This document shows positions 2,744-13,399 of a stretch of 17,218 nucleotides of DNA, in pieces (position 1 is the first letter of the stretch; each line of letters starts with the position of its first letter). This DNA comes from Nitrospinae bacterium RIFCSPLOWO2_12_FULL_45_22. GTDB lineage: Bacteria > 2-12-FULL-45-22. The stretch spans positions 1 to 17,218 of the forward strand of contig MHDQ01000242.1 of the NCBI GenBank assembly GCA_001803565.1, in the 5' to 3' direction. The notes beneath the pieces were generated by a model that worked only from the letters and a program-made list of their open reading frames with translations, ran no database searches and had not been told where the DNA came from. Position numbers and translations under genes: made by a program.

Positions 2744-3988
2744 TCAATAGGCCAGGGCAATTAAATGGGCCAAATAATGGGGCGACCTGCCTGTGCCAAG
2801 GCAGACAGGTAATTTTGTCACTGGAATCCAGGTTATCCATGAAAAGGGATAACTTTTTCGTGGGGTTTGTCCTGTGCAAAAAACAAATGTTTTTATCCCT
2901 TGTTTTTCAAGAAATTCCCATACTCCTTTTGGCAATGAGTCGTCCAGGAGGATGGTCTTATTATGTTCCAGGAAGGGGATTAACTGGCCTGGGTCCCAAT
3001 CCTTACCGGGAGCAATCCCAGGAGAGAAATCAGAAAAGGAAAAGGGTTGAAAGCCATAATGGTCAATGATCTTTTCCATTAATGGTTCTCCGAGTTGATT
3101 AGCCAGTCCCTCAAAGCATATGAGGCAAGATTTCTGGTCAAAATATCTCTGTCTCAAGTTAATGACCAACTTATAGTTTAACCTACCATAGTCTTCGGCG
3201 GCCCCGAAACGATCCTCGGGTTCTTCATCACCATGATAATCTGAACCACCTGTCAATATGAGATCATATTTCTGACATAAATACTGGTAAAACTTTAGAT
3301 CCGAATAGGCTAGACCGGGGTATATCCCTTCCAATCCATCCAGGCCATACCCTTTAAATTCAGCCACTATCTCTTCGAGGAGTTTTTGGTCGGGAGTTAT
3401 TAACCGGGGATGAGCCAATACCGACAGCCCGGCTACTCCTTTTATAATAGCAACAGCTTCCTGAACCGTGCATCTCGCCTTTGGGATATTGCAGGGGTTA
3501 AGATACCTACTGAAGGCCTCATTAATATCTGCCACATAGCCATGGCCTACTAATTCTCTGGCTAAATGCATCCGGCCCAACGAACCCCTGGCCTCCCGCA
3601 ATATACTCTCATAATCTAATGGCCTTTTACCTTTATTCTTAAGGCATTGGTTTGTCTTTGCCAGGATCTTTTCTCCCCTCTCTAGCCGCCTCTGCTGAAA
3701 TTCCAGCAAAGTATTGACTAATTCACCTTCTCTCCAGCGAATGTAATAGCCCAGAATATGGATATCTTTATAATCCTTGTACTGCACACTAAGTTCCACA
3801 CCAGGTATAACCTCCACGCCCAGGGATTCTCCTTCTACCAGGGCCTCTTCTATCCCTGACAGGTTGTCATGATCAGTGATAGCAATAGTCGCGAGGGCAT
3901 GGGCCTTAGCTTTAGAGACTATTTCCCTGGGGGCCTTCTTACCATCTGAAGCCCAGGTATGGATATGCAAATCCACCTTACTGTTCAT
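2744..3988 (-). CDS. PHP-domain phosphoesterase with C-terminal extension
   Basis: Metal-dependent phosphoesterase of the PHP superfamily, closest in pattern to the YciV/TrpH group, whose characterised members act on 5' ends of RNA and on nucleoside 3',5'-bisphosphates. Metal-ligand motifs are in order: VDLHIH (H8, H10), ITDHD (D39, H40), PGVEL (E65), HILGY (H77), LAHPR (H193) and GSDYHG (D250, H252). The PHP part ends near residue 275, the normal length of the group, yet this protein has 414 residues. Residues about 282-390 carry no motif I recognise. They open with CLICFEGL, reminiscent of the first strand of nucleotide-kinase folds but without a P-loop. The last about 25 residues are read partly from a palindromic repeat. 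The ATG at 3988 lacks a strong Shine-Dalgarno sequence. PHP identity is secure; the substrate is inference. Confidence 0.88.
   Translation of the reverse strand: MNSKVDLHIHTWASDGKKAPREIVSKAKAHALATIAITDHDNLSGIEEALVEGESLGVEVIPGVELSVQYKDYKDIHILGYYIRWREGELVNTLLEFQQRRLERGEKILAKTNQCLKNKGKRPLDYESILREARGSLGRMHLARELVGHGYVADINEAFSRYLNPCNIPKARCTVQEAVAIIKGVAGLSVLAHPRLITPDQKLLEEIVAEFKGYGLDGLEGIYPGLAYSDLKFYQYLCQKYDLILTGGSDYHGDEEPEDRFGAAEDYGRLNYKLVINLRQRYFDQKSCLICFEGLANQLGEPLMEKIIDHYGFQPFSFSDFSPGIAPGKDWDPGQLIPFLEHNKTILLDDSLPKGVWEFLEKQGIKTFVFCTGQTPRKSYPFSWITWIPVTKLPVCLGTGRSPHYLAHLIALAY
2785..2810. repeat. CCTGCCTG-type palindromic repeat inside PHP coding sequence
   Basis: Arms ACCTGCCTG and CAGACAGGT are complementary with one mismatch and flank a short loop. 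Related elements occur at 5723-5748 and 5572-5590 in non-coding DNA. Here the element is translated in frame, contributing about residues 393-401 (LPVCLGTGR) near the C-terminus of the PHP protein. Confidence 0.6.
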
Positions 3989-4388
3989 TGTGTATCCAAA
4001 GCCCTACGAATCTTTAAAGTTAATTTCCCTCTAAATTAAATTTAGCATTACCATAGCACAAACCGTGCTTTATGGAAATACAATATTTGCCTTTAAACTA
4101 TAAATAGGCTATTTTTATCTTAATTCCGACATTCGAGAGGTTTTTATTATAGTTGAAGCAACAGTTTAGCCAAATAAAGTATCCCAAAGACTTGCCACGG
4201 ATAGACACAGATGAACACGGATCACCTGGCTAACCCTTCGGGCTTGAGCCCTCAAGGGCGAAGCCTTTCCCTGCCACTAAGGCTCAAAGACACCAATGGC
4301 ACCTCATTTACTACTCCTTAGTGCCTTGGTGGCCTAATCTGCGTCTATCTGTGTCCAAGAAGGAAATTCATATACTATCAAGGTAAAT
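3989..4388. other. 400-base intergenic region: AT-rich part and nested palindromes
   Basis: No ORF is credible here. The PHP-proximal part is AT-rich and holds a bulged hairpin at 4051-4075 (CCATAGCAC / GTGCT-TT-ATGG). A loose promoter-like pair TTGCCT (4087-4092) and TATTTT (4110-4115), spaced 17 bases, could serve the downstream kinase but is weak. The rest, from 4195, is a set of nested inverted repeats listed separately. The region presumably carries promoters for both divergent genes. Confidence 0.5.
4195..4356. repeat. Nested three-part inverted repeat
   Basis: Outer arms: left about 4195-4224 made of GGATAGACACAGATGAACAC-like words, right 4336-4356 (AATCTGCGTCTATCTGTGTC plus one C). 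Middle arms: 4273-4296 (GCCACTAAGGCTCAAAGACA onwards) and 4316-4333 (CCTTAGTGCCTTGGTGGC). A third hairpin at 4237-4262 pairs TTCGGGCTTGAG with CTCAAGGGCGAA, with two mismatches. The three arm families differ in word content, which suggests that separate elements are stacked here. The kinase start codon at 4389 follows 32 bases later. Confidence 0.6.
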
Positions 4389-5501
4389 ATGGCACAGGAG
4401 GCACTAAATAGCTGGGATTTTTTTAGATCGGTCCTGGATGGAATCCAGGATATGATAAAGATTCTGGATAGAGATTATAAGATTATCTATGCTAATCGGT
4501 CAGCCCAGGAATACCTGGGCAAGCCTTTAGAAGAGTTAATAGGAAGGCATTGCTACCAGGAATATCACCAGTCTCCCCTACCTCCTGAACATTGTGTTAC
4601 AATGGATACCTATCAGACAGGAGCCCCTCAAAATTCTGCCTTTACCACTTTAGAGCCTGACGGTTTAGAGAGGCACTGGGAGATAGCTACCTTCCCTTTA
4701 AAGGACGATGAGGGAAACGTAAAATATATTATTGAGATAGTTAAAGATATTACCGAGCGGAAGATACTACGATATCAATTGGTGGAAGCGGAGAGATTAG
4801 CCAGTTTAGGCCACCTAGCAGCAGGAATAGCCCATGAACTCCGCAACCCATTAGTAGCTATTGGCTCAATAACTCAACTCCTGGATGAAGATACTGATGA
4901 GAACGACCCCCGTAAAGGAGATATTCAGACCCTTATACGGGAGATAAAGAGGCTGGATAAATTTATCCATGAGTTTTTGGACTTCTCTGCCCCCAAAGGC
5001 CCTCACCCCTCCCTTTGTGACCTGGCAGACCTAATAGAAGATACTCTGGTCCTATTGGATAAGCAGATAAGTTCTAACAAGATAAAGATAATAAAAAAAT
5101 TTCCCAAAAACGTCCCTAAACTCCTTTTGGATAAAGACCAAATAAAACAAGTCTTTCTGAATATTATTGTCAATGCTATGGAGGCTATGCCTGATGGAGG
5201 AGAGCTAGGGATAACTGTAACTGCAGCCCCGCCCGGAGTTTATGACCAGTCAACGAAAGACATTAAAGGCAAAAGCCTTTCATCTGCCAAAGGAGTTGTG
5301 ATAGAATTCCGTGATACCGGCTGCGGTATCCCACCCGATAAGCTAAAAAAGATTTTTGACCCCTTCTTTTCCTATGGGAAAAAAGGTACGGGCTTAGGAC
5401 TATCTATATGTCACAAGATTGTCCAGAGTCATTTAGGAAGGATAGAAGTAGAAAGCCGGGTTAATCAGGGGACCCGGGTAAATATCTGGCTGCCCGTTTA
5501 A
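4389..5501 (+). CDS. PAS-domain sensor histidine kinase
   Basis: Soluble 370-residue kinase. One PAS domain (about 8-125, ending VKDITERK), HisKA (about 133-200) with H149 in the box RLASLGHLAAGIAHELRNP, and HATPase (about 245-370). The ATPase boxes are QVFLNIIVNAMEAM (N258, N262), DTGCGIPP (309-316), IFDPFF (322-327) and GTGLGL (333-338). The linker between N- and G1-boxes is longer than usual (about 277-303). Within PAS, the stretch from H54-C55 to H68-C69 carries two HC pairs, a spacing seen in PAS domains with cysteine/histidine-rich insets that may bind metal or sense redox; that is inference. There is no transmembrane segment and no receiver or regulator neighbour. An AAGGT sequence 7 bases before the ATG supports the start. 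It shares its architecture class with the kinase at the window start. Confidence 0.93.
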   Translation: MAQEALNSWDFFRSVLDGIQDMIKILDRDYKIIYANRSAQEYLGKPLEELIGRHCYQEYHQSPLPPEHCVTMDTYQTGAPQNSAFTTLEPDGLERHWEIATFPLKDDEGNVKYIIEIVKDITERKILRYQLVEAERLASLGHLAAGIAHELRNPLVAIGSITQLLDEDTDENDPRKGDIQTLIREIKRLDKFIHEFLDFSAPKGPHPSLCDLADLIEDTLVLLDKQISSNKIKIIKKFPKNVPKLLLDKDQIKQVFLNIIVNAMEAMPDGGELGITVTAAPPGVYDQSTKDIKGKSLSSAKGVVIEFRDTGCGIPPDKLKKIFDPFFSYGKKGTGLGLSICHKIVQSHLGRIEVESRVNQGTRVNIWLPV

Positions 5502-5656
5502 GTGGGGCGTGCAATTCCACCCTTCTATCGGTGCGCTATTGCACATATGGGGTTTCCCGGGTTCTTCCCCGCCTGCCAGCGGACAGGTAGCAAAAGACTT
5601 AAAATCTAGGTATAATTTTAATAGAAATTTAGGTAAAGAGATACTCTTTTAAGAAT

Positions 5657-5811
5657 AAACCACAAAGCCACAAAGAGCACTAAGAGAGGAGTAAAAGGTC
5701 ATTAGGTGATTTAATTACCTACCTGCCTGTGCGTTGCACGCAGACAGGATAACTCAATAACCCAATGACCTACTAACCTAATGATCCAAATTACCTTTGT
5801 CTCTTTGTGGC
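5657..5811. repeat. Nested inverted repeat: CACAAAG outer, TCATTAGG middle, CCTGCCTG core
   Basis: The outer arms are a 28-base CCACAAAGCCACAAAGAGCA-type block (5657-5684) and CCTTTGTCTCTTTGTGGC (5794-5811). Inside lie AAAGGTCATTAGGTGATTTA-type (from 5694) and its complement CCTAATGATCC-type (about 5757-5790). At the centre, 5723-5748 is a CCTGCCTGTGCG / CGCAGACAGG hairpin. Each layer has its own sequence family, and the core family is found elsewhere alone. The outer left arm recurs at 6340-6367 with a single base difference. Confidence 0.7.
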
Positions 5812-5945
5812 AACGTAACTATTCAGGTAGGCACAGAGGCACAGAGAGCCAAAGGCACAAAGTAGGAAAAAAACAATGAAACGACCCTGCTCCGCTCTGC
5901 TTTGTGCCTATGTGCCTTTGCCACTTTGTGCCTGAGTAGTTACGT
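5812..5945. repeat. Long inverted repeat of GGCACAAAG words
   Basis: The arms are 5813-5866 and 5897-5945. The outer ends ACGTAACTA (5813-5821) and TAGTTACGT (5937-5945) are perfectly complementary. Inward, TCAGG...GGCACA...AAAGGCACAAAG pairs with CTTTGTGCCTATGTGCC...TTTGTGCCTGA. The loop is 5867-5896. It lies 21 bases upstream of the NifU-like gene's Shine-Dalgarno sequence, so it would be in its leader if transcription starts farther upstream. Confidence 0.7.
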
Positions 5946-5979
5946 GGCAACAAACTTAACTAAAATGGAGGAATTTTCA

Positions 5980-6204: not shown

Positions 6205-6445
6205 TAGCATAGGAATTTCCTTTTTAATAACCCGGTTTTTCAGTATGCTTGTGGTGAGCGAAGCGAATCCATCAATTCCGAAAGGGCAAGGCTTGTCCTG
6301 AGTGAAGCGAAAGAAAGGGAGAAGCAAAGCAGGTAAGATAAACCACAAAGCCACAAAGAACACTAAGCAATTTAGTTAAGAGTAAGGAGTAAATAGTTAC
6401 TCCTTACTGCTAACGGCTTACTGCTCACTTTTATCTGGAGGTAAG
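6205..6445. other. Intergenic region with direct repeat, 28-mer copy and hairpin
   Basis: No gene. It holds a direct repeat of about 21 bases (6247-6267 and 6291-6311, sharing GCTTGT..TGAG.GAAGCGAA with three differences), the near-exact second copy of the CACAAAG block (6340-6367), and a perfect hairpin (6381-6408). It ends in the TCTGGAGG Shine-Dalgarno sequence of the cytochrome gene. Confidence 0.6.
6381..6408. repeat. Perfect 12-bp hairpin AGTAAGGAGTAA / TTACTCCTTACT
   Basis: The 12-base arms 6381-6392 and 6397-6408 are exact reverse complements around the loop ATAG. It is the most perfect copy of the GTAAGGAGT family that also occurs at 2672-2743 and 10022-10067. It lies 37 bases before the cytochrome start, with no T-run after it, so it is more likely a repeat element than an intrinsic terminator. 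Confidence 0.75.
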
Positions 6446-7247: not shown

Positions 7248-7308
7248 TTTTTGGGCGCAGATGAACGCAGCAAAAGATGCATGAATCTGCGTAAATCTGC
7301 GTCCCAAA
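7248..7308. repeat. Inverted repeat of CGCAGAT words
   Basis: The left arm TTTTTGGGCGCAGATGAACG (7248-7267, continuing to 7270) pairs with the right arm AATCTGCGTAAATCTGCGTC (7284-7303, continuing CCAAA to 7308). The arm ends TTTGGG and CCCAAA are perfect. Upstream (7190-7240) are loose GATTTAGGATTT-type reiterations. It ends 9 bases before the DUF255 start codon, so it may sit in that gene's leader and affect initiation. Confidence 0.6.
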
Positions 7309-9033: not shown

Positions 9034-10033
9034 GGCTAATTGGAAACATATTATTGATCTGATCAGGCGAGGGGAGAGGTTCATGCTTACTACCCACATT
9101 AATCCCGATGGAGATGCCATTGGCTCAGAAATGGCCCTCAACTATCTCCTGAAGGGTCTTGGCAAAGAGGTACGGATTATTAATGATAGCCCTCTGCCAT
9201 ATTACTTAACCTTTCTAGACCCTAATAGCGAGATAGAGACCCTGGCTAATACCCCCACTGTACCCCTAAAACTACCATCCCTGGATGGCATATTTATTCT
9301 GGATATCAGTGACTGGCAGAGGCTCGGCAGGCTAAAAGAGATGGTTAAAGATAGCCCGGCCCTGAAAATCTGCCTGGATCATCACCCCGCCCAGGATAGG
9401 CCGGGTGATATAAATATGGTAGATGAGGGGGCGTCTAATACTGGCATATTAATATTTGAGCTTATAAACCGCTTAGAGGTCAAGCTAACCAAGCCCATGG
9501 CTGAAGCCCTCTATGTTTCTCTCTTGACCGATACCGGTTCTTTCCGCTTTTCTAATACTAATGCTAAGGCCCATGAAATGGCAGCCCAATTAATAAGAGC
9601 CGGGGTAGTAAGTCATGAGATATATTCTAAGGTTTATGAGCAGGGATCCTGGGATAGGATGAGACTCCTGGGCAAACTCCTCTCCTCTATTGAATCGTGT
9701 TGCCAAAATAAGGTAGCATATCTCGCGGTTACCCAGGAGCTATTAAACACCTATCATGTACACCCCGATGAGGTAGAGGGTTTTGTCGAATTCCCCCGGG
9801 TTATCGAAGGGGTGGAGGTAGTTATCCTGTTCCAGGAGATAGGCCAGGAAAAGACCAGGATCAGCCTCCGCTCTAAAGGGAAAGTAAATGTTCAAGAGAT
9901 AGCCCATATATTTGGCGGTGGCGGCCATCCTTATGCTTCGGGTATCAGGCTAGATAAGTCTTTGCCAGAGTCCATTTGCTCTCTACTGGGAGTGCTTGAA
10001 GAAAAATTATATGGATTGAGAAGTGAGCAGTAA
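9017..10033 (+). CDS. nrnA: DHH/DHHA1 phosphoesterase, NrnA-like nanoRNase/pAp phosphatase
   Basis: A 338-residue cytosolic phosphoesterase that by family removes 5'-mononucleotides from very short RNAs and/or dephosphorylates pAp, using Mn2+. Motifs: THINPDGDAIGS (H27, D31, D33), LDISD (D96, D99), LDHHP (D121, H122, H123), the GASNTGILIFEL segment, LLTDTGSFRFSNT (D172), and in the DHHA1 domain FGGGGHPYASG (299-309) that binds substrate. The length agrees with the family. The ATG at 9017 lies inside the end of the DUF255 gene, giving coupled translation. The last codons (AGT GAG CAG TAA) fall in a palindromic repeat that starts at 10022, so the C-terminal S-E-Q tail and the stop come from repeat sequence. 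The choice between nanoRNase, pAp phosphatase or both is not visible from sequence. Confidence 0.92.
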   Translation: MNTLPEANWKHIIDLIRRGERFMLTTHINPDGDAIGSEMALNYLLKGLGKEVRIINDSPLPYYLTFLDPNSEIETLANTPTVPLKLPSLDGIFILDISDWQRLGRLKEMVKDSPALKICLDHHPAQDRPGDINMVDEGASNTGILIFELINRLEVKLTKPMAEALYVSLLTDTGSFRFSNTNAKAHEMAAQLIRAGVVSHEIYSKVYEQGSWDRMRLLGKLLSSIESCCQNKVAYLAVTQELLNTYHVHPDEVEGFVEFPRVIEGVEVVILFQEIGQEKTRISLRSKGKVNVQEIAHIFGGGGHPYASGIRLDKSLPESICSLLGVLEEKLYGLRSEQ

Positions 10034-10067
10034 GCAGTTACCTGCTCACTTACTCACTCCTTACTGC
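10022..10067. repeat. Hairpin repeat containing the nrnA-like stop codon
   Basis: AGTGAGCAG (10022-10030) pairs perfectly with CTGCTCACT (10042-10050); the loop carries the TAA stop (10031-10033). An alternative stem pairs GCAGTAAG (10028-10035) with CTTACTGC (10060-10067). The two pairings are mutually exclusive. It belongs to the GTAAGGAGT/AGTGAGCAG word family. The nfo start is at 10084. Confidence 0.6.
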
Positions 10068-10931: not shown

Positions 10932-11072
10932 ATTATTCATCACTGCAGAAACGCAAAGCCGCAAAGGACACAAAAAGGCATAAGGCGATAACTCCTCATC
11001 CCCTTACCCCTAACTCCTCACTCCTTACGATGTGGATATCTTTGCGTCTTTGCGGTTGTTATTATGAATAAT
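10932..11072. repeat. Large inverted repeat between convergent nfo and radical SAM genes
   Basis: The outer arms ATTATTCAT (10932-10940) and ATGAATAAT (11064-11072) are perfect complements. Inside, AACGCAAAGCCGCAAAG (from 10950) pairs with CTTTGCGTCTTTGCGGTT (to about 11058). The loop region 10989-11029 holds forward and variant copies of TAACTCCTCACTCCTTAC. It could act as a two-way transcription stop between converging genes. This is the same nested design as 4195-4356 and 5657-5811. Confidence 0.65.
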
Positions 11073-11103: not shown

Positions 11104-12168
11104 TTATGCGAGATATTTCTCCTGGGCCTCGGGGTTGAGCCAACATTTTGGGTCTGGACCAGCTAGATCACCGGTATAATGCAGGGCCGCCGCACGACAA
11201 CCCACGCAAATATCATTATTCTCACACTGGGCGCACTTACCTTTTACCGAGATATCTCGCATGGAGATGGTCTCTTTATGCTGCTGGTAGATATCATAGA
11301 AGCGCTGCTGATAAACGTTACCTGAAGCCATCTCCCGGGGCATCTGGCCACAGCGCATGACCAAACCATCTACCGTCAGATAGACATTAGTGCGGCACTG
11401 AATAGTAGTACATTCCGTAGAGCCCATCCGAGCCCAGTTGGGGCTATTAAATTTCTTGGCCCGGTACTCAAAAGCCCGTTTTACATCAGAGAGGCTGGGC
11501 TCTAACGCACGCTTGATGCTACCACTGCCCATGGGCTTAAATACCGACATCTCTACGAATCTTGCCCCCATCTCATCAACATACCAGTCAATAGTTTCCT
11601 CAATAGCCTCCGCGGCTGGGCCGGTCAGGGTGATACAGGGCAGGATGCGCTCCCGGAGAAACCCGGCCTCAAGGAGGTTTTTATATCCTTGTATTCGAGC
11701 GGAGAGTTCTTTGGGATTAGAATGGAGCCGGGCAAAGACTTCGGGGTTGATACTATCTATATGGATACCAAAGACATTGAGATACCTCTTCTGATAAGCT
11801 TCTACCACCTTCTTGCTCATAGACCTGGTTAGGGGTAAACCACCAGAAAATGCCCCACAGCCTATACCAACATGAGAGGCATAGGCCAGGATCTCAAAAA
11901 AATCTGGGTGCAACAAGGACTCCCCACCATCCCAATAAATCTGACAAAAACCCAGAGTAGCCAGGTCATCCAATACCTCAAATACCTTTTCCTTTGGCAT
12001 ATATTGCGGGTTGGGGTTAGCATCTGAATTGCTAAAGCAAAACTTACAAGTATGGGGGCATTTAGTAGTCAATTCCCAATCAATATAATAAGGCCGTTTC
12101 TCTTTCCAGGCCCGTACTTTCCTCGGACTGATATATTTATCAAAGATATCTTCCCGATATGTCGCCAT
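11104..12168 (-). CDS. Radical SAM/SPASM enzyme, paralogue 1
   Basis: A 354-residue enzyme predicted to cleave S-adenosylmethionine with a [4Fe-4S] cluster and start radical chemistry on an unknown, possibly peptide, substrate. The radical SAM cluster is C37-x3-C41-x2-C44 (TKCPHTCKFCF). The SAM-binding GGE motif reads GGES rather than GGEP (about 81-84). The SPASM domain for auxiliary clusters is complete: C258, C273 (VDGLVMRC), then C312-x2-C315-x5-C321-x2-C324 and C342 (DPKCW). The start is the ATG at 12168 with GGAGGG eight bases ahead; a TTG twelve codons upstream has no better support. It is clearly homologous to the gene upstream (shared AEAIEETID, EPSLSDVKRA/EPSLDEVRRA and KGKCA-C-E-ND motifs). 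Related SPASM enzymes include haem/haem d1 enzymes (AhbD, NirJ) and peptide maturases; neither role can be chosen from the sequence. Confidence 0.9.
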   Translation of the reverse strand: MATYREDIFDKYISPRKVRAWKEKRPYYIDWELTTKCPHTCKFCFSNSDANPNPQYMPKEKVFEVLDDLATLGFCQIYWDGGESLLHPDFFEILAYASHVGIGCGAFSGGLPLTRSMSKKVVEAYQKRYLNVFGIHIDSINPEVFARLHSNPKELSARIQGYKNLLEAGFLRERILPCITLTGPAAEAIEETIDWYVDEMGARFVEMSVFKPMGSGSIKRALEPSLSDVKRAFEYRAKKFNSPNWARMGSTECTTIQCRTNVYLTVDGLVMRCGQMPREMASGNVYQQRFYDIYQQHKETISMRDISVKGKCAQCENNDICVGCRAAALHYTGDLAGPDPKCWLNPEAQEKYLA

Positions 12169-12295
12169 AATTCTCCCTCCTAAAATATCTCCTGCCTTAA
12201 TCAAAGATTTTAATTACCGGGAACATAGATTTATGCAACCTTTTACCCATCTTTCTTTGCATCATATCATCCTAATCTTCACCTTATACTCGCTC

Positions 12296-13399
12296 TCATT
12301 TCATATCCATCTGCCAGACATATTGGGGTGACTCAGGATTCTTCCAGCACTTGGGGTCACTGGCTTCTACATCGCCCAGGTAGCGCCAGGCATTGCCCCG
12401 ACAGCCAAAACAGACATCATTATGCTCGCAATCAGCACACTTTCCCTTTATCTTGATGGTCTTAAAATGGAGCATCTCTTTATTGGGCTCATGGATATCA
12501 ATAAAGCTCTTCTCATGAATATTCCCGGCCGACATATGAGTGAGCCAATTACAGGGTGCAACTTCACCATCAATGTTAATATAGCATTTGTAAATACAAT
12601 GAATATGTGGGGTATCGAGGGTAGCAATCCTGAGCCATTCCGGAGAGAGCCTCTTTGCCCGATACTCCATGGCCCGCCGTACCTCATCTAAGCTGGGCTC
12701 CCACTCACGTTCCAAATGAGTGAGAGAGGTTGGCCCCTGTGGCTTATAAGGGAAGAGGAAGACATGGGCAACCTTCATCTCATCCACAAAATAATCTATG
12801 GTCTCTTCTATGGCCTCTGCAACCGGCTTGGTAAGGGTAGTAGAGACAAAGACCCGGCTAGAAGGGAAACCGGCATCTAATAAACTTTTCCAGTTATCTA
12901 ACTTCTTTTTTAAGGTTTTCGGATGATCATGGATCCTGGCAAAGACCCGCTCATTGGTAGTCTCAATATTGAGGCCTACATATTGCAAGCCCCCCCACTT
13001 CACGATCTTTTTGCACATCTGCTTAGTTAAAGGGATGCCGCTGGTAAAGACGCAGCACTCTATCCCCTTTTCTGCGGCATATTCTGAGGCCTCAAATAGC
13101 CAGGGATAAAACAAGGGCTCACCACCCTGCCACTCAATGGATACAGTACCTAATTGAGCGGCCTCATCTATGAGATTAAACAGCCGCTCCCTGGGCAGTA
13201 CCTTTTGGCCTGACGGGGTAGAATAATTCCAGCAAAACTTACAACCCCCGGTACAGCGATCCAGGAGCTCAATATCTAAATGCCGGGGGATATTCTCTTC
13301 CGCCAGCTTTTTCCTTTTAGGGTTGAAATAGCTCAAGAAGATATACTCAGAAGACAACTCCTTTTTACCCACAGTCTTTGCTTTCACTACCTGTACCAT
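12296..13399 (-). CDS. Radical SAM/SPASM enzyme, paralogue 2
   Basis: A 367-residue paralogue, first gene of the minus-strand pair. The radical SAM cluster is C49-x3-C53-x2-C56 (DRCTGGCKFCW), with a canonical GGEP at 92-95. SPASM: C272, C283 (GEVAPC), C321-x2-C324-x5-C330-x2-C333, and C351 (DPKCW), the same layout as paralogue 1. It carries an N-terminal extension of about 12-15 residues relative to the other copy (VKAKTVGKKEL). The start is the ATG at 13399 with GGAGGTAGG ahead of it. The two genes are 127 bases apart and probably form one transcript. No ABC transporter, protease or obvious RiPP precursor is adjacent. Possible substrates are a short peptide or a tetrapyrrole; no claim is made. 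A palindrome at 13420-13435 overlaps the proposed transcription start. Confidence 0.9.
   Translation of the reverse strand: MVQVVKAKTVGKKELSSEYIFLSYFNPKRKKLAEENIPRHLDIELLDRCTGGCKFCWNYSTPSGQKVLPRERLFNLIDEAAQLGTVSIEWQGGEPLFYPWLFEASEYAAEKGIECCVFTSGIPLTKQMCKKIVKWGGLQYVGLNIETTNERVFARIHDHPKTLKKKLDNWKSLLDAGFPSSRVFVSTTLTKPVAEAIEETIDYFVDEMKVAHVFLFPYKPQGPTSLTHLEREWEPSLDEVRRAMEYRAKRLSPEWLRIATLDTPHIHCIYKCYINIDGEVAPCNWLTHMSAGNIHEKSFIDIHEPNKEMLHFKTIKIKGKCADCEHNDVCFGCRGNAWRYLGDVEASDPKCWKNPESPQYVWQMDMK

Follow-up and report, generated by a model that had tools for sequence, protein, structure and literature searches.

Nested palindromes in an intergenic gap of a Nitrospinae bacterium: probable successive insertion of separately mobile units

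The window analysed here is a stretch of 17,218 nucleotides, contig 242 of a 3.67-Mb assembly in 321 contigs from Nitrospinae bacterium RIFCSPLOWO2_12_FULL_45_22. A histidine kinase gene (4389-5501) and a nifU-like gene (from 5980) flank a gap that holds a composite palindrome in which one repeat family sits inside another, and the question is how such a structure comes about. The layering is A (CCACAAAG words) > B (TCATTAGG words) > C (a 27-nt hairpin), to which a fourth unit, F, is added (Table 1). An earlier note on this DNA had described three nested palindrome families without F, and all three are present where it placed them. The strand forms a single nested hairpin at -27.1 kcal/mol, compared to -12.5 +/- 2.6 for shuffles (z = -5.6), with 0 of 200 shuffles folding as well; inclusion of the neighbouring palindrome brings z to -7.3. 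The extent of 5657-5811 given in that note is too short, as A spans 5649-5959, with its right end set at 5959 because F is inserted in the right arm. The left end of A reads TTAAGAATAAACCACAAAG and the right end CTTTGTGGCAAC...AAACTTAA, and the same two distinct ends are found in paralogous A copies. These two constant, different ends speak for a mobile unit. The TTAA present at both ends of A could be either a part of the repeats or a duplication.

Table 1. Positions of the composite palindrome, its layers and related palindromes in the window.
Feature	Position	Strand	Remarks
A, outer palindromic element	5649-5959	.	arms of CCACAAAG/CACTAAG words; right arm interrupted by F
A ends	5649 / 5959		TTAAGAATAAACC...GGCAAC(F)AAACTTAA; basis: sequence
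B, palindrome of 8-nt TCATTAGG/TTATTGGG words within A	5696-5796	.	arms 5696-5721 and 5749-5796
C, 27-nt hairpin CCTGCCTGTGCGTTGCACGCAGACAGG	5722-5748	.	exact insertion at tip of A>B, without target duplication
F, GTAACTATTCAGG...CCTGAGTAGTTAC MITE, IS66 type	5815-5943	.	in right arm of A
F target duplication GTGGCAAC, left copy	5807-5814	+	8 bp
F target duplication GTGGCAAC, right copy	5944-5951	+	8 bp
Solo C hairpin, 24 nt	2786-2809	.	in frame near 3' end of minus-strand ORF 2744-3988
A arm (right arm not recognised), then GTAAGGAG-word (D) palindrome	6338-6440	.	
Second doll, CGCAAAG-word shell (A') around GTAAGGAG/CTCCTTAC words (D)	10946-11065	.	
Third doll, ACACAGATGAACACGGAT-word shell (E) around CACTAAG/CTTAGTG words	4201-4356	.	

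The reading favoured here, with a probability of about 0.87, is that the element is composite, assembled by the successive insertion of palindromes that are each mobile in their own right. The first support comes from the layers themselves, which occur apart. When the region was compared to its own genome, 61 matches were found, to parts of the element and not to the whole. Loci for closer comparison were taken from targeted stretches and from 40 contigs chosen as an arithmetic sample. The earlier note took it that its proposal would fall if the three layers were always found together, and the paralogues show that they are not: A>B occurs without C, B and C each occur alone, and A occurs with other contents. 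The A copies hold B, B plus C, D-type or GCAAAG-type contents, and at many loci B stands by itself or within another shell. Within the window, the core was correctly noted to occur alone, as the solo C hairpin of Table 1, and the outer arm does recur near 6340 (6338-6367, 97% identity). The similar core reported at 5572-5590 is only a distant C-like hairpin that does not match the C pattern. Nor is the order of layers fixed, since a TAGTTAAC palindrome is the outer layer around CGCAGAG words at one locus (L136) and lies within D words at another (L167).

This freedom bears on a different explanation, in which the doll forms a single functional RNA or terminator structure, maintained as a unit and selected for its nesting. 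The site between the histidine kinase and nifU-like genes and a fold far better than that of shuffles would suit such a structure, which is nonetheless highly improbable: Rfam covariance models at the gathering score have 0 matches within the window, the contents of the same shell vary freely by locus, and copies lie at many unrelated intergenic sites.

Further support for successive insertion comes from pairs of empty and filled sites. The pairs are paralogues, as the genomes searched include a single one of the same order and the others share the rank of domain only. The alignment of two A>B dolls (L125 and L127) to the window runs through A and B, and exactly the 27 nt of C are missing from both. 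Their empty junction reads ...GGTGATTTAATTACCTA|ATAACTCAATAACC..., with one base different in L127, and there is no target duplication at the C junction in the window. In the window copy, the distance from C to the CCACAAAG end is about 62-63 nt, and that to the CTTTGTGG end is 63 nt. Similarly, two GTAA elements, L240 (173 bp, duplication TAAAATTA) and L176 (200 bp, duplication AAGAAAGA), differ by a 27-nt C, which is also carried by a further 200-bp relative (L013); in the 200-bp element C is central, with 85 nt on one side and 88 nt on the other. A second C of 19 nt is present in L028 and missing from L012, and one of 24 nt is present in L228 and missing from L239 and L246. Comparison of L186 to L232 shows C apparently in place of 13 nt of a REP, and in L144, from the same genome, a C sits within the loop of a C. 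The C pattern has 55 copies in the 3.67-Mb genome, compared to 0 for the reversed control pattern. The flanks of the 26 C copies listed have no consensus and no conserved GTAG-like foot tetranucleotide.

The outer shells provide the second line of evidence. In the window, F is flanked by GTGGCAAC on either side, a perfect 8-bp duplication (8/8), which marks the right arm of A as the insertion site of F. With F removed, that arm reads CTTTGTGGCAACAAACTTAA, as in the arm of other A copies, and the F homologues L002, L005 and L142 each have an 8-bp duplication of their own. In an unselected list of GTAA-type end pairs, the 8-bp duplication is complete (8/8) in 10 of 26 candidates, compared to a background of 0/1437 at 7 or more. 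Adding more loci and looser partner ends gives a set of 32 sampled GTAA elements, selected at a duplication of at least 7/8, with 23 at 8/8 and 9 at 7/8. The terminal inverted repeat of F and of nearly all 32 begins with GTAA, and GTAA-type ends number 484 genome-wide versus 117 for the reversed control pattern. For a second shell family, GGGTGTGGCTATTCTTTGTCA, the genome-wide count of ends is 55 (control, 0), and 7 of its 8 complete copies have 9-bp duplications of at least 7/9. This GGGTGTGGC-ended element occupies two different positions in one GTAA element (L155 and L154), each time with a 9-bp duplication, the empty form being L149. The GTAA and GGGTGTGGC outer shells are therefore ordinary MITEs.

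An IS66-family transposase gene (PF03050, E = 1e-18) is present in the genome and adjoins the end GTAACCGTTCACCC. IS66 elements have repeats starting GTAAGCG and 8-bp duplications (PMC11946415). The left end GTAACCGTTCACCC of the IS66 element equals the end of one MITE subtype, and the ends of F (GTAACTATTCAGG) fit the general pattern only. The gene runs into a stretch of N at L176:2207-2215, a scaffold gap that joins it to an unrelated gene; this gap removes the right end of the sole IS66 copy found, so that one end was compared with the MITEs. The GTAA shells would thus have moved by DDE transposition with 8-bp duplications and IS66 as the likely driver, and a putative DDE transposase that makes 9-bp duplications, whose gene was not found, likely moves the GGGTGTGGC shells. 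The GTAA elements resemble IS66-family MITEs in their GTAA-starting terminal repeats, their 8-bp duplications (PMC11946415) and the presence in the genome of an IS66 transposase whose left end matches one MITE subtype. They differ in that the interior here is a stack of other palindromes, the comparison to the autonomous copy covering one end.

The layers can also be placed in order. In the window, C came after A>B. The likely course is that A already carried B, because A>B is itself copied as a unit, and that C next entered the tip of A>B. F would have entered the right end of A, before or after C. The route of C would differ from that of the shells: a 19-33-nt unit is inserted exactly and makes no target duplication. 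The order is explicit for a five-layered doll at L130:540-880, which reads GTAA > CACGGAT words > AATTAGCAAT words > GGGTGTGGC MITE > REPIN, owing to two nested duplications, an outer one of 8 bp (7/8) and an inner one of 9 bp (AAATCAATT, 9/9) around the REPIN. As dolls of this kind give the relative order of insertion, repeat families become datable against each other. In a further doll (L238:628-907), a REPIN lies in a GGGTGTGGC shell and its loop is filled by another nested palindrome (CGTCATTCCGG...CCGGAATGACG).

Nested arms could instead have grown in place, by slippage of 8-nt words and snap-back copying with no mobile unit involved. Runs of degenerate 8-10-nt words, varying in number, make up the arms of A, B, D and E, as such growth would produce, and for B, D and E no target duplication or empty site was found among the sampled stretches, so these layers may have grown in this way; for B, the slippage of words may have taken place within a hairpin. 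As an account of the whole element, growth in place is unlikely. It does not produce the exact presence or absence of 27, 24 and 19 nt of C, the 8- and 9-bp duplications around shells, or identical units at dozens of unrelated loci, and it is refuted for C, for the GTAA shells and for the GGGTGTGGC shells. For these units, the repeated insertion of palindromic mobile units suggested in the earlier note is borne out by the exact empty/filled paralogue pairs and the target duplications.

The earlier note proposed looking for a RAYT/TnpA-REP-type transposase, and the genome does have five Y1_Tnp loci, three of them with recognisable REPs around them whose sequence is unlike C. REPs of the RAYT-linked types form the cores of some dolls. 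The GTAGTGG cores inside GGGTGTGGC shells consist of two inverted GTAG hairpins, which makes them REPINs, and these REPIN cores belong to the RAYTs of the genome. Should a single RAYT/TnpA-REP system move every layer in a REPIN-like manner, the REPINs inside shells would be expected, as would the presence of Y1_Tnp in 32 of 33 genomes rich in A words compared to 86 of 159 others, an association that may reflect the style of a genome rather than cause. Y1 transposition is not known to make 8- or 9-bp duplications such as the shells carry. C has no conserved GTAG-like foot, its association with Y1 across genomes is weak (p = 0.085), and Y1_Tnp has no match in two genomes (G094 and G171) that have 8-9 C copies, one of these genomes being 100% complete. 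Y1 is therefore rejected as necessary for C, and one RAYT system for all layers is quite unlikely; the RAYTs go with other REP families and doll cores, and C has neither their tetranucleotide nor a strict dependence on them. The analysis linked no transposase to C, A or B.

Successive insertion leads to the question of whether palindrome tips are preferred, as the earlier note held for the loop of every element. Fourteen insertion events were collected by hand with borders that could be set, most of them from pattern borders or direct comparison. Their fractional positions are.491,.481,.811,.803,.728,.635,.805,.53,.508,.43,.50,.50,.625 and.32, with those of L159 (.43), L144 (.50) and L247 (.32) judged by eye. 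Seven of the 14 lie within 0.07 of the centre where 2 are expected (p = 0.0015), and several are far off axis (0.63-0.81). Consistent with this, 14.7% of intergenic C copies are at palindrome tips, defined by outward-pairing flanks with a score of at least 12, compared to 3.85% of random intergenic points (p = 0.0099), an excess of about 4-fold over the intergenic background. An excess of about 9-fold at the same score was overstated, its control points being near C and mostly coding. A rank test over all C copies found no shift (p = 0.44), so that the tip effect comes from a minority of them; no fewer than three quarters of C copies lie away from any palindrome. Tip insertion is thus a preference and not a rule: nesting at the loop holds for roughly half of those insertions whose position could be set, and the others are anywhere.

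Exposure of the loop may be the cause of this preference. It is conceivable, with the odds somewhat against it, that C joins an exposed single-stranded target as single-stranded hairpin DNA, and such joining would explain the excess of C in hairpin loops. Base-exact cases of palindromes within palindromes in bacteria make it directly testable whether hairpin or cruciform tips attract mobile DNA.

C is not confined to this genome. Its pattern is found in 48 of the 192 genomes searched, with 60 copies in G188 and 39 in G032; the reversed control is near zero save in a few genomes, G056 and G137 among them, and the counts of these few were disregarded. The identical 27-mer of the window is also present in G116, G092, G103, G171 and G135, which share only the rank of domain with it. 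In G032, the inner C unit at the tip of one REP>C shell differs between loci (L284 compared to L285 and L289), and there are further cases of C within C (L283, L286 and L287). In G066, C lies in the loop of a REP-like hairpin (L270). The A-type words are found in 64 of the 192 genomes, and also in named contigs of Gemmataceae, Desulfuromonadales and Margulisiibacteriota.

Several known systems share traits with these units. REP/REPIN sequences with their RAYTs (PMC3116915, PMC2817692) are likewise short, dispersed intergenic hairpins, and GTAG-footed pairs form the core of some dolls; unlike them, C lacks a GTAG foot, usually occurs singly and is present in genomes without Y1_Tnp. REP-targeting insertion sequences such as ISRm22, IS1397 and IS621 also insert at the axis of a pre-existing palindrome, and ISRm22 was reported exactly at the axis of palindromy of its REP (PMC1525189). 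Here, however, the inserted units are themselves palindromes, stacked up to five layers, and the preference is partial. Short mobile palindromes that merge have been described in mitochondria (PMC4478555, PMC2670323), and the mitochondrial GC clusters and Volvox organelle palindromes resemble the present units in being gene-less, in merging or shuffling and in having no known mobilizer (PMC4478555, PMC2670323). They are organellar, whereas C is common to deep bacterial lineages, and GC42 is described with AG target nucleotides whereas C makes no duplication. The nested MITEs are of a familiar kind.

An exact-word literature search, with most subscription journals outside its scope, found no paper on the word palindromes, and none was found in the same range on a bare hairpin like C in bacteria. 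C would be a new variant of minimal mobile hairpin, perhaps a new class. On a bolder and rather doubtful reading, C is the first of a widespread class of minimal mobile DNA in bacteria, a bare hairpin of 19-33 nt. Its members would, just as tentatively, combine exact and duplication-free insertion, a preference for loops including their own, and carriage between deep lineages. The mover, on the same speculative footing, might be an enzyme other than the Y1 transposase or errors of single-strand replication at hairpins. Identification of the mover of C could explain many stray intergenic hairpins in metagenome assemblies.

Some copies of C are also found in genes. Open frames of at least 150 aa hold 22 of the 63 distinct C copies, and the length of C is a multiple of 3 in 16 of these 22, compared to 22 of 41 outside frames; an excess inside frames is not clear. 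Such copies may give proteins stray peptides, for example CLSARSQAG.

Word palindromes or half-palindromes (GTAAGGAG, CACAGATGAACACGGAT and CGCAAAG words) are present in most intergenic gaps of the window, at 2672-2745, 4201-4356, 6338-6440, 7252-7303, 10021-10066 and 10946-11065, and several of them are nested. Palindromes were detected by gapped alignment, in which scores of 23-25 are often noise; at 25 or more there are 40 compared to 10 in the shuffled control, and at 30 or more there are 17 compared to 0. Elsewhere in the window, adjacent minus-strand genes at 11104-13399 share diverged DNA, 72-80% over short stretches, and this pair is probably a tandem duplication.
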